A DNA stretch of 64,000 nucleotides from Isoetes taiwanensis (lineage: Eukaryota; Streptophyta; Lycopodiopsida; Isoetales; Isoetaceae). The DNA is taken from positions 1,094,746 through 1,158,745 of the forward strand of contig JAJEKV010000061.1 in the NCBI GenBank assembly GCA_021234155.1, written 5' to 3'. Within the stretch, counting starts at the first letter, position 1, and every line of letters begins with the position of its first letter. The notes under the pieces are model-generated. The model saw only the letters and a program-made list of their open reading frames with translations. It did not search any database and was not told the origin of the DNA. The translations under genes were made by a program, and so were the position numbers. Shown piece by piece: positions 5,925 to 16,294 of the stretch.

Positions 5925-7011
5925 ATGCCACGTTTCAAACTTACAGTAGACCTCAAGAAGATGAACGTCTTTCAGCTTTATAGCGTGCTTGTAGACCATC
6001 TAGGGGATGACCATAGTGACGTCGACGTGGTTCTAGATTTGCTAGTGAAACACTTTACTGAGAACCGCAGAATACCATACCCTATTTTTCACTTTAACGA
6101 GCGGTTTCTTATGAAGCTAAATGCTGCAGACCAACCTTACACTCTTATGGAGCAGCCAGATCAAGCTTACGCCATCACTAAGTTTTACCCGCTGCCGACC
6201 CCAGAGGAGGATCCCATAGAGCTTATCCGAACTGAGGCCCAAAGGATTTTGCACCTTGCTACGATAGAGGACCTCCAGCAAATAGCTAGTGGCCTCCCAG
6301 AAGAGCGAGCTAGCCGTTTTTATTACCTTGGTAAAGGCCATGTGCTTATGTACAGGGACCATTACAATCTTCCTCCCTTTTACTGGAATGCAGAATTGAA
6401 TAGCTTCATCTTCGATGATATTCCACAAGAAATAACACAGGACCGCATGGACCTCATTGAAATTGACATGCAAGCTCGGCCGGACTGGTATCATGCGGAG
6501 ATTGCACGAAGAATCCAGGTACGCCTGGATAAGGAGGCCCGAAATGCTGAGACCGAGCGGATCCATAGAGCTGAAGAGGTTGCCCAGAATGTTGTTCCGG
6601 AGAAGGAGGAGAGATGGGGTAACCGAAAGAGGAAGCTTACGAAGCCAACAAGGGGAGGCGTCCATTACAAGAACCGGCTACAGAAGGATGCTGAGATCGG
6701 CAAGAAAACGTCGGCACAACGTCGGGAACAGATGGTGCAAAGGGCAAAACACCCCTCGACCGGCGGAAGACCTTACCCTTGCCTGTGCCAAAAAGCCGGA
6801 AGCCCCCTGGTTCGACCAGGCACAGTAACCCTGCGCGAGATACGTAAGTATCAGAAGACGACTGAGCCCCTGATACGCCGGCTACCCTTCTAGCGTCTTG
6901 TCCGGGAAATTGCCCAAGATTTCAAGACCGACCTGAGGTTTCAGGCTTTTGCTTTACTTGCGCTTCAGGAAGCTGCTGAAGCCTACCTGATTGAGATTTT
7001 GAGCGATGCCA
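5925..7011 (+). pseudogene. Chromovirus ORF1: novel N-terminal domain fused to a histone H3 fold (5' part)
   Basis: Translation starts in a strong context (GCCACCATGCC). Residues 1 to about 210 are an acidic domain I do not recognise (MPRFKLTVDLKK start, many Asp/Glu, aromatic patch YWNAELNSFIFDD). Residues 210-290 are basic. From about 6815 the same frame reads as histone H3: RPGTVTLREIRKYQKTTE, LIRRLPF, a TAG in place of Gln at 6891-6893, then RLVREIAQDFKTDLRFQ, LALQEAAEAYL, ILSDA. The frame is cut at 7011 by the DNA transposon end. The missing end of the fold lies on the minus strand at 16206-16294. There is no extra residue in loop 1, as in canonical H3; KTTE and SDA differ from canonical KSTE and EDT. 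The tail before RPGTV is not a normal H3 tail apart from a possible STGG. The H3 identity is secure; its role in the element is unknown. Confidence 0.88.
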
Positions 7012-7032
7012 GGGTAGTTGCACGAAAGGGTG
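7012..7032 (+). repeat. DNA transposon terminus A
   Basis: This 21-bp terminus is identical to 16295-16315. The flanking GCCA at 7008-7011 is one copy of the target duplication within the H3 codons for Asp-Ala-Asn. Confidence 0.88.
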
Positions 7033-7359
7033 GATAAAAAAAGGGCCCAAATTTTACATTTACAAAGGCAAAATGTAGGCAATATTTTGGAGGGGGGGTC
7101 ATTAATACCACAATTAATGGTTGGAGGTTTGGGGAAAACCACATTTGGAAGGATTTTGAACGTGTGCGTTTTCTCCGTCCTGCTCAACAAGCCACTCCTG
7201 AACTCTCTCTCTGTTAGCAAAGCTCTGTCTTGAGCAGTGGCCGATTCGAATCCTTACTTGACGATTCTTAGTTCCCTTCTGCATCATAAGCTTCTTGGTC
7301 TTCTTAGAAGGGTCGAAGGCCGAGCACGTGATCGTGGTTTAGTTCTTAGGTTTGGGATC

Positions 7360-7509
7360 ATGACAAAGCCTCCATCTCGTGTTTCCCCAGAAATCACCAC
7401 GTTTGAAGCCAATGCAAAGGTCTCCAAAGCATGCAAAAGAAAGAAAATGAATGGTGGGACGTCTCCATCAAGAAAGAGAAAGCTACAAGTACATCAGCCC
7501 GAAGTTTGA
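7360..7509 (+). pseudogene. Basic N-terminal segment of transposon ORF (fragment)
   Basis: This is a short open stretch beginning at an internal Met (MTKPPSRVSPEITT) and rich in Lys/Arg: KACKRKK and SRKRKLQ resemble nuclear localisation signals. It probably belonged to the same protein as the ORF at 7652, but the 7510-7650 interval is out of frame. No family is recognised. Confidence 0.35.
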
Positions 7510-7651
7510 GAAGGTAAATGTGGAAACACCTTAGAAGCAACCATTTTGATACTCTTTATCCGTGGCTTTTTACAAATAGTGCAAGGAGTTTGGGGAGTGA
7601 AGCTCCAAAGAGTGAGGGGTTATCGGGGAGAGTAGGATCGAGCAAAGATGG

Positions 7652-14457: not shown

Positions 14458-14594
14458 ATATATGTATTATGTAATGGCTCATTGGAGAAATGCCATTTAA
14501 AATTACATTCATAAGTAATACAAAGATTAATAATAATTAATTTTTTTTGTTTACAACATCTTTACGAGCTAGGTCCCTCATCTTCCTCCATAGG
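14458..14594 (-). other. Spacer between ORF2 and gag
   Basis: It is an AT-rich spacer of ~140 bp with no feature identified. Confidence 0.5.
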
Positions 14595-15942
14595 CTATGG
14601 AGGCGGTCGGTAACGCATTAAGGTGGTGTTGGGACTAGCAGAGAGGGCGGCTCGAGCTGCTGCATCCGGTGGAAGGCAAGTAGCCAAAGGTGCCGCGACA
14701 AGGAGACGCATACTAGCGCAGCCCGCCACGTCCCCCAACGCCACAATAGCGAGATCTCGTTGGACCAAAGTGATAGTGGTGGCATGATAATCAATCTTCT
14801 TATGGCCCGCCAAGGTGGATAATGCACGGAGTGCCCACCAAGATGCTTCGGATGGAGGCCCCAAATACTTGGAAAAGAAAAGAACCTCACCTTGTCGAAA
14901 GGCAGAAAGAAAAAATCGGGTCAAGTGATTGCCCATTGCCTTAATTTGTGGATCATTTGAGGTCTCTGTCTCCTTTTCCAAGTTGATAGGTATTCTCCTG
15001 CTCAGTCTCTTCCTTATCATCCCGAAGATGCATCTTTGCATCAGAGAGGTCTTCCTCAGCCTGGTCTACCTCTGCCATGGTGATCTGCAATGGCTGACTT
15101 GTAGGAGGAGGTCGCATGACAGGTGCAAACTGCTCCTCGGGAGGCTGTGGATCATCTGTCATTAGGAATTGCCGGAGAGACAAAAGGGTCTCAACGGGCT
15201 CTATGTCCTCTGGGCGGAATGCAAACAAATCTTGGACTTGCGGCGGATGCACAACAGGCGTTGTGAAATCGACGAAGTCATCCTGGCAGAACTCTGCAAG
15301 GTCATATAGGACTTCTATCTTTCGCCGGCCCCACATATCGGCGATAACGCGGTAAGCCCACATGATATCCTCCAAAATGAGATACTCTTGGTTGTTCAAG
15401 AGTATGGTGGGGAGAAGATCTAGCCCCTCAAGCTTCAGGGCTTTGTCACGACCCGTCGGTGACTCCGTAGCCAGTTCTTTCCATCATGCAAAATCTTGCT
15501 CGTCGACGACTTCATCGTCTTCTGGGTCAGGGGGTATAGACTGCTCTGCAGGTATCTGTTCATCCTCTATATACTGGTCCATGATGATTGCCAGTGCAAA
15601 ACGAGCCTCAAAACAGAGCTGGCGGTCTATAGTGACAATAGGAAGGTCGATTCCTCTTCTTCTAATGCCCTTAAGAACATTGCGGGCGTGGTCATCGTCT
15701 CCCAACATTTCCATCAAGATGTGGATGTCAAGGTAGAGCTGGGAGTCTGCTTCGTTGAAGACACATGCAGGCACAACCTCTTCATGGAAGAACTGAAGAC
15801 AACTTGCATAGTCTGGATGTGCTTGCATGTTGTGGATGAGATCCACTTGCTGGAGCAAATGAGGGTGAAGTACATCAAAGGGAACCGCAGGGTCCCAATG
15901 TTCACCATCCAGGTACCACTGTTGTAGGGTAGGGCGGTCCAT
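14595..15942 (-). pseudogene. Chromovirus ORF2, unknown protein (~450 aa)
   Basis: It lies between the H3 ORF and gag in the un-inverted element. The likely start is MDRPTLQQWYLDGEHWDP at 15942. The frame runs to an in-frame TGA at 15484-15486, continues (WKELATESPTGRDK ... NNQEYLILEDIMWAYR) and shifts by one near 15000 into QIKAMGNHLTRFF ... LMRYRPPP. It is acidic in the middle (PPDPEDDEVVDEQ, EEDLSDAK) with an Ala/Leu-rich hydrophobic C-terminal part. No zinc finger, protease, nuclease or membrane protein signature is evident, and I do not recognise the family. Its position suggests an element-encoded accessory protein. A degenerate extra gag domain is an alternative. Confidence 0.6.
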
Positions 15943-16205
15943 GACAAAGAATAAAGAAGAAGGAGGAAGGCGCTGAAGGCAAGGAAAGAAATGAAACCCT
16001 AATGTCCAAAAAGTGACTTTATATCTTTTTGGCACGTTTTCCTAGGTCACAAAAAAAAATTATTATTTATTTAATAATCCTCATTTATATAGATAAAAAG
16101 TCATTAAAAATACAGAATTGATCCCATAACTTCCCAAAAAAAAAATTTCACATATATCCCATAAAGCTTTTACAATATACACAAGAAATAAAAAAAATCC
16201 CTAAA

Positions 16206-16294
16206 CTAGCGGGAATCTCCTCAGATTCTTCGCGTCAAAGTATATCTTTGGGCATGATGGTGACTCTTTTAGCATGAATGGCGTACAGGTTGGC
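16206..16294 (-). pseudogene. Histone H3 fold of chromovirus ORF1, 3' end
   Basis: The minus strand reads (A)NLYAIHAKRVTIMPKDI, the C-terminal helix of histone H3. A one-base deletion follows at the Gln codon, then LTRRI, a TGA where H3 has Arg (CGA), then GDSR and TAG. It begins exactly at the transposon end (16295) and completes the SDA that stops at 7011; joined across the GCCA duplication the codons read Ser-Asp-Ala-Asn-Leu-Tyr. The usual plant Cys in NLCAIH is Tyr here. Confidence 0.9.

Follow-up and report, generated by a model that had tools for sequence, protein, structure and literature searches.

A chromovirus family of Isoetes taiwanensis encodes a histone H3 fused to a novel N-terminal domain

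In this study, we analysed a window of 64,000 nucleotides from the lycophyte Isoetes taiwanensis (GenBank assembly GCA_021234155.1, contig JAJEKV010000061.1, positions 1,094,746 to 1,158,745, forward strand). We found that its first 26 kb contain one decayed Ty3-type chromovirus, with long terminal repeats (LTRs) at both ends, which encodes a histone H3 fold of its own joined to a novel N-terminal domain. This fusion is family-wide and is older than the split between two subfamilies, A (that of the window) and B. The initial annotation, made from the letters of the window, had proposed the fusion together with two tests that could undo it, namely that other copies lack H3 and that its codons evolve neutrally; the proposal withstood both.

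ORF1 and its H3 across the family

The first open reading frame (ORF1) starts at ATG 5925, 714 bases past the primer-binding site (PBS), and continues, as had been annotated, in a single frame from the N-terminal domain (N-domain) into RPGTVTLREIRKYQKTTE. The parts of ORF1 in the window are the following:

5925..6593, plus strand: N-domain of about 223 residues, of no known family (open frame; no Pfam family)
6594..6812, plus strand: basic linker and altered H3 tail (alignment of 19 sequences; counts of tail motifs)
6813..7011, plus strand: N-terminal part of the H3 core (RPGTV... to ...EILSDA), with an in-frame TAG at 6891-6893 (Pfam and structure matches)
16206..16294, minus strand: C-terminal part of the H3 core (ANLYAIHAKRVTIMPKDI...) to the H3 stop, with the frame broken near the end (end of homology by eye)

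The H3 identity is not due to chance. Indeed, Pfam Histone matches 6894-7034 at E 2.5e-12, and solved H3 chains match 6786-6890 at E 1.1e-8 and 6894-7013 at E 7.1e-14. The last piece of H3 does lie, as initially described, at 16294-16206 on the minus strand, and DNA homology to the H3 end reaches the stop at 16208-16206 (by eye), but the window copy is broken: the TAG at 6891-6893 already interrupts it ahead of the split, and its last ~15 codons carry two more lesions (by eye). Two other details of the initial description held in part. The start context, called strong, has an A at -3 but a C at +4, and the N-domain, called acidic, is only mildly so (38 D+E vs 25 K+R in 223 residues) and not strongly acidic. 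Structure prediction of ORF1 from the window sequence gave a mean predicted local distance difference test score (pLDDT) of 42 and a predicted template modelling score (pTM) of 0.22, values too low for a structural comparison.

We searched the window's own assembly, that is one genome of 1.66 Gb in 1110 contigs. The ORF1 search, in which 124 of 3937 candidates were scored, returned at least 189 matches, some copies matching twice. We fetched 80 copies with an N-terminal ORF1 match, best-scoring first, an order that favours conserved copies, and H3 follows the N-domain in 75 of them. Among the five others, L023 is similar to H3-bearing copies over its whole 2 kb and its H3 looks decayed; in the remaining four, the likeness to other copies ends before or inside H3. 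Nineteen of the 80 copies are open from the ATG through the H3 C-terminus (393-455 residues), and two open copies match Pfam Histone at 141.5 and 142.4 bits (cut-off 26.4). Two further ORF1 copies lie on the same contig within ~35 kb of the window (1178911-1179663 and 1060664-1061470; 89% and 79% identical). In several copies (e.g. L075, L077 and L084), repeats of the QGDQNVDQ type, variable in length, are found between the N-domain and the basic linker.

Subfamily B was reached through H3 itself. A search with canonical H3, in which 150 of 9103 candidates were scored, yielded 15 host genes that are full length, in one frame and 97-99% identical, along with 135 further matches, 127 of which are stop-free over the matched stretch. 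Ten of these 135, mostly picked for long open frames, were read and all belong to B; the six that were read upstream are all ORF1-type fusions. Subfamily B thus keeps the same fusion though its N-domain is only 31-38% identical.

In four copies read over 10 kb, the order is invariably ORF1 N-domain, H3, ORF2, gag and reverse transcriptase (RT). The exact PBS string stands ahead of ORF1 in three of the four, and a chromodomain follows in three of them. Their integrase is nearly complete in two, a fragment in one and absent from the 10 kb read in one. We also took a sample based on RT, which avoids choice by ORF1 and is small: every 7th of 82 scored RT matches, 12 in all, with 3.2 kb upstream. 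H3 is present in six of these 12 stretches (one of them decayed). As to the remaining six, L122 has an ORF1 that runs off the end of the stretch, L120 is probably part of the same element as L087, an H3-bearing one, L126 and L129 retain ORF2 and are interrupted upstream, and no trace of the element is seen in L123 or L127 (what is inserted in L123 and L129 was judged by eye). None of the 12 stretches has a PBS directly before gag, and none is a clean element without H3.

We then examined selection with the Nei-Gojobori method (NG86) on 70 H3 cores of 92 codons, as the ratio of mean nonsynonymous (dN) to mean synonymous (dS) divergence by dS bin, the pairs not being independent. From the lowest to the highest bin, dN/dS of the H3 core is 0.62 (dS<0.05, 7 pairs), 0.27, 0.19, 0.13, 0.09, 0.12 and 0.08 (dS 0.8-2, 910 pairs). 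That of the N-domain (223 codons, 81 rows including the window) drops from 0.55 (1 pair) to 0.12. Such a fall is expected if inserted copies decay freely while transposing lineages keep the protein. Among open copies, dN/dS is 0.038-0.049 for H3 vs 0.139 for the N-domain. A one-ratio codon model, dead copies included, gave an omega of 0.21 for H3 and 0.23-0.24 for the N-domain. H3 residues 69-133, which lay outside the ORF1 query throughout, have a dN/dS of 0.074 over all rows. For ten B copies, the medians (pS 0.423 and pN 0.010, the synonymous and nonsynonymous proportions) give 0.016, a value biased downwards because these rows were among those ranked highest for likeness to H3. Altogether, these codon comparisons show strong purifying selection on the H3 part and indicate that this histone stayed functional as the family spread.

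Residues and origin of the element H3

The element H3 has the H3 fold and is nearest to canonical H3.1/H3.3, its best solved chain being Histone H3.3. Compared with canonical H3 (up to 76 rows), the A copies carry K64R, L60P (55/72), S86A (72/76), H87F (73/76), G102E (72/76), E105S (70/76) and T107A (72/75). Positions 108-131, which we take to make the H3-H3' and DNA contacts, are near-canonical, with R129 and I130 in 66/66 copies, K115 in 73/74, H113 in 71/75 and D123 in 68/71. E77 is found in the ten host H3 genes read and in most A copies (50/76).

The element H3s bear a signature of their own at positions 86-107. F87 is present in 18/18 A and 10/10 B copies and in none of 16 host-type H3s; A107 is common to all A and B rows and is likewise absent from the 16 host-type rows. 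In the alpha-2 helix, A or T stands at 86, F at 87, I, L or V at 89, and L90 is kept, so that the host H3.3-type site (S86, H87, A88, V89 and L90) is not found. This site is the one given for chaperone recognition in the available part of the review of viral histones by Talbert (PMC9145170).

The tail is altered throughout. None of the canonical contexts of K4, K9, K27 and K36 (ARTK, TARKS, AARKS and VKKPH, respectively) occurs in the 19 A or the 6 B open copies, and position 36 is R in 17 of the 19 A copies (by eye). Some H3-like fragments are present: STGGK in 9/19 A copies and [RK]KPH in 18/19 A and 6/6 B copies.

Median identities to ten host H3 genes are 83.5% for A and 88% for B, and 83% between A and B. 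In a tree of 92 columns, A (18 rows, 99/95), B (10 rows, 91/83) and host-type H3 (16 rows, 100/97) each form one side of a branch, with bootstraps that are unsettled; with 63 A and 12 host-type rows, the branch between them has 100/100. The phylogeny suggested at the outset places the element H3s in a group apart from H3.1/H3.3-type genes, whether these come from the host or from other organisms. A single capture that predates the A-B split would explain these sequences most simply, though this is not proved. Since silent sites are saturated between element and host, the capture is old relative to the insertion found in the window. Host H3 genes are intronless over the matched stretch, and the absence of introns is therefore uninformative on the route of capture.

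A CENH3-like origin was considered and is not supported. In CENH3, loop 1 is longer and the alpha-1 and alpha-2 helices are diverged. Loop 1 of the element H3 is, unlike that of CENH3, canonical and without insertion, and the element H3s fall beside canonical H3, in trees that held no CENH3 row. A search with the H3 region among proteins of 199-633 aa gave, among the best 120 of 5073 hits, 114 usable cores that represent 12 distinct host-type cores and no element H3; a more diverged element H3 could hide below those 120 hits.

Organization of the element, ORF2 and relatives

The other features of the element in the window are listed below:

3673..5209, plus strand: 5' LTR (TG...CA) of the chromovirus (repeat pair with 23295-24757)
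5211..5222, plus strand: PBS, TGGTATCAGAGC (exact string at 5211)
7012..10190, plus strand: left part of a DNA transposon within H3, end repeat at 7012-7032 (right limit by eye)
10195..11286, minus strand: integrase, cut by the inversion breakpoint near 10190 (Pfam Integrase_H2C2, 73 bits, and rve, 34.5 bits, in a scan of 10126-11286)
11416..12990, minus strand: protease, reverse transcriptase and RNase H (Pfam RVP_2, RVT_1 at 136.9 bits, RT_RNaseH_2)
13018..14457, minus strand: gag (Pfam Ty3_capsid, 55.8 bits, and Retrotrans_gag, 54.8 bits)
14596..15942, minus strand: ORF2, about 450 residues, broken in the window by one stop and one frame change (conserved in L090, L091 and L092)
16295..22075, plus strand: right part of this DNA transposon, moved here by the inversion, end repeat at 16295-16315 (right limit by eye)
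22198..22386, plus strand: SH3-like C-terminal part of integrase, past the inversion (Pfam SH3_Tf2-1, 73.9 bits)
22390..22611, plus strand: chromodomain (Pfam Chromo, E 2.4e-9, 37.4 bits, cut-off 25.1)
23281..23294, plus strand: polypurine tract ahead of the 3' LTR (read from the sequence)
23295..24757, plus strand: 3' LTR (repeat pair with the 5' LTR)

These features are those of a Ty3/Gypsy chromovirus, with LTRs, PBS and polypurine tract, RT followed by integrase (the Gypsy order) and a chromodomain at the end of the integrase; the chromodomain had been anticipated in the initial annotation. The PBS presumably resembles that for the initiator-Met tRNA. The two LTRs have 1385 matching and 50 differing positions (Kimura two-parameter distance 0.036). 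The element lies in a repeat, and an uninserted tandem copy of this repeat, at 25392-26164, provides the empty target site. The 5-base flanks of the element, GTCGA and GCCTA, are each one base off the GCCGA of this site, which points to an ordinary insertion with a decayed target duplication. The region 24758-26164 is a tandem duplication of the flanking repeat and preserves the target site of the element uninserted.

The split of H3 can be retraced. Identical 21-nt end repeats, GGGTAGTTGCACGAAAGGGTG, lie in the same orientation at 7012-7032 and 16295-16315, each adjoining one H3 half, and a 4-base repeat, GCCA in the H3 orientation, flanks both transposon ends. In the simplest history, H3 would have been split by the insertion of a DNA transposon with a 4-base target duplication. 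Because both transposon ends point in the same direction on the plus strand, one inversion would have come afterwards, from ~10190 to ~22075 (by eye), probably flipping half the transposon, the H3 end, ORF2, gag and most of pol. It also severed the integrase, whose SH3 part resumes, with the chromodomain, at 22198-22611 on the plus strand. The DNA transposon contains an ORF at 21637-22080 (minus strand) that resembles a Ulp1-like protease just below the Pfam cut-off (19.1 vs 20.7 bits), and another of 365 residues at 17817-18914 (plus strand) without a Pfam match.

The N-domain matches no Pfam family. Elements with an ORF upstream of gag are known, Ogre being an example. Among 2671 candidates sharing 5-residue words, drawn from 5.8 billion proteins, no ORF1 homologue was found at E <= 0.01, nor were relatives found in a viral contig collection or in a plasmid collection. 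As the collection of 5.8 billion holds plant proteins, ORF1 is either novel or limited to plants whose transposon proteins are unannotated. A profile of 18 N-domains matched one GNAT acetyltransferase chain, 2q7b, at E 0.0025; adding subfamily B weakened this to 0.013, and we keep the match as a lead only. A relationship of the N-domain to ORF2 was rejected (BLASTP E 0.29; hhalign probability 0.1). ORF2, located between the H3-bearing ORF1 and gag, is 78-84% identical to that of L091 in three other rows and has no Pfam match in the two open copies scanned.

Among the best 120 of 8000 scored matches, relatives of the window RT are ~45-55% identical over most of the query and come from angiosperms and from one PITA-prefixed record, probably pine. 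Within the genome, the B elements L131 and L132 differ from the A element L092 by a pS of 0.35-0.36 in RT, and several pairs of A elements are further apart (e.g. window-L092 0.59, L089-L092 0.69). Between L092 and L131/L132, the ORF1 N-domain (0.80-0.84), ORF2 (0.80) and H3 (0.87-0.92) are saturated. With a saturated cassette next to a close RT, the ORF1-H3-ORF2 cassette does not share the history of the polymerase, and recombination between elements is the likely cause, to judge from these two B elements. Anciently diverged A and B cassettes are also seen on closely related polymerases in the set L092, L121, L125, L131 and L132, a sign of module exchange. Within ORF1, N-domain and H3 distances are correlated (Mantel r 0.48 vs at most 0.21 in 999 permutations).

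Two other stretches of the window recall LTR elements. At 31048-31186 (minus strand), a second, diverged LTR end and PBS string are ~74% similar to the 5' LTR end and PBS region, without ORF1 in the window. Finally, two 150-base direct repeats, 98% identical (40245-40394 and 45644-45793), with a PBS string at 40397 between them, belong to another LTR element, Copia-like judging its ORFs by eye.

Putative functions and significance

We lean, by a little more than an even chance, towards ORF1 being an H3 variant which the retroelement supplies and which joins host H4 and becomes part of chromatin, its deposition and purpose being what we infer. The element H3 would pair with host H4, be handled by host H3-H4 chaperones, enter the nucleus and be built into nucleosomes, where it would display the N-domain. 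Such variant nucleosomes might resist silencing marks, above all dimethylation of H3 lysine 9 (H3K9me2), and could tether element proteins or complementary DNA (cDNA) to chromatin. The purpose put forward in the initial annotation was that the protein may bias nucleosomes or mimic chromatin for targeting. The core is the most constrained part and the tail is under relaxed constraint, which fits pairing with H4 and assembly and not the carrying of marks. With the H3K4, H3K9 and H3K27 contexts and mostly that of K36 lost, these nucleosomes would resist the marks that plants use for silencing. Plant transposon silencing is described, in the available part of one source, as a loop of H3K9me2 and DNA methylation (PMC9033089); having no K9 context, the element H3 would not be expected to support this loop.

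Several observations weigh against an H3 variant that enters chromatin. The alpha-2 site is altered and not kept, which makes the use of host chaperones uncertain. In 3/6 B copies, an ARKS tetrapeptide lies in the linker, upstream of the tail, so that a methylatable site may remain there. Many copies are broken, including that of the window, and 61 of the 80 are not open throughout. Moreover, the loss of the tail contexts could merely reflect dispensability under a long N-terminal fusion.

A wider proposal, which we regard as speculative and rather unlikely in its entirety, is that of an anti-silencing system. Here, element-made H3 without the K4, K9, K27 and K36 methylation contexts would be deposited and break the loop of H3K9me2 and DNA methylation, the chromodomain would guide integration, and the ORF1-H3-ORF2 cassette would move between polymerase backbones, two ancient cassettes competing in one genome.

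The pattern of constraint can also be read without stable deposition. If H3 bound host H4, ASF1-type chaperones and importins, ORF1, with the integration complex or particle on its N-domain, might enter the nucleus or reach replicating chromatin. Core interfaces that are constrained next to a mark-relevant tail free to diverge, and an N-domain protein that evolves several times faster in intact copies (0.139 vs 0.038-0.049), would agree with such a role in nuclear import. However, the DNA-contact residues of the core are conserved as well and are not needed for import alone, and we consider this role unlikely.

Conserved DNA contacts and the basic linker would suit a structural nucleoprotein, in which H3, with host H4, would be a DNA-binding module compacting element RNA or cDNA in the particle; ORF1 also has ORF2 and gag as its neighbours and is passed on as part of the element, as the correlation of N-domain and H3 distances suggests. 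Against such packaging, a lone H3 presumably forms no particle without H4, and no histone-like partner was seen in the element, which makes this role improbable. Equally improbable, in our opinion, is an undeposited decoy that would titrate or mislead silencing enzymes, chaperones or H3 readers: H3-like tail fragments (STGGK and [RK]KPH) are kept where the methylated contexts are not, but a decoy does not need a whole histone fold conserved to a dN/dS of 0.04. Finally, a one-off captured host fragment or pseudogene, carried as a passive passenger, could be expected from the broken window copy and from the frequent transduction of host genes by plant LTR elements, as stated in the available part of a report (PMC7264820); it is refuted here by the many copies, the two deeply split subfamilies, the strong purifying selection and the 19/80 open copies.

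The element follows the known chromovirus order (LTR, PBS, gag, protease-RT-RNase H, integrase, chromodomain and polypurine tract) and differs by two extra ORFs between PBS and gag, one of them with a histone H3. The closest counterparts in function may be the single viral H3 genes of large DNA viruses (PMC9145170, the review cited above, here and below in its available part). Within the fold they share 73-87% identity with host H3; some have longer N-termini, and they are thought to enter host nucleosomes. As in our element, one H3-like histone was captured and its alpha-2 chaperone site changed (TAIL in viruses, FAIL or FALL here); unlike in our element, the carriers are DNA viruses and the N-terminal additions measure 53-68 residues instead of ~300. 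The bracovirus histone H4 (CvBV-H4) is likewise a core histone that was captured; it has an extended tail and exerts its action in the chromatin of the host, but it is H4 and not H3, and it resides in a wasp-borne, virus-derived particle and not in a retroelement (PMC9145170). Orf1 of the nudivirus HzNV-1 shares the layout, with a histone fold at the C-terminus and, ahead of it, a long N-terminal region that has no known relatives; it differs in belonging to a DNA virus and in being an H4-H3 doublet that shares 30-40% identity with host histones (PMC9145170).

In kind, the nearest cases are the domains captured by Gypsy elements (PMC9289625, likewise in its available part). A Phalaenopsis Gypsy lineage has fixed a host-derived AlkB N6-methyladenosine (m6A) demethylase ORF, which is also proposed to counter host control, though its domain is an enzyme acting on RNA. 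In the section of this screen of 121 angiosperm genomes that deals with extra Gypsy domains, no histone is named (PMC9289625), and the word 'retrotransposon' has no occurrence in the available text of the review of viral histones (PMC9145170). The initial annotation knew of no description of an element with both an H3 fold and a chromodomain. The open-access literature that we searched held no report of a retroelement-encoded histone.

Some DNA viruses are known to carry core histones; in the literature searched, we found no transposable element that maintains a nucleosomal histone of its own under selection. If the protein enters chromatin, the family would be a natural test of a parasite writing part of the chromatin of its host, and would show which H3 residues serve assembly and which serve only marks. 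If this is true, a histone writer and a histone reader, the chromodomain, would be united in one mobile element, and the fight of transposons against histone-based silencing would become directly testable.

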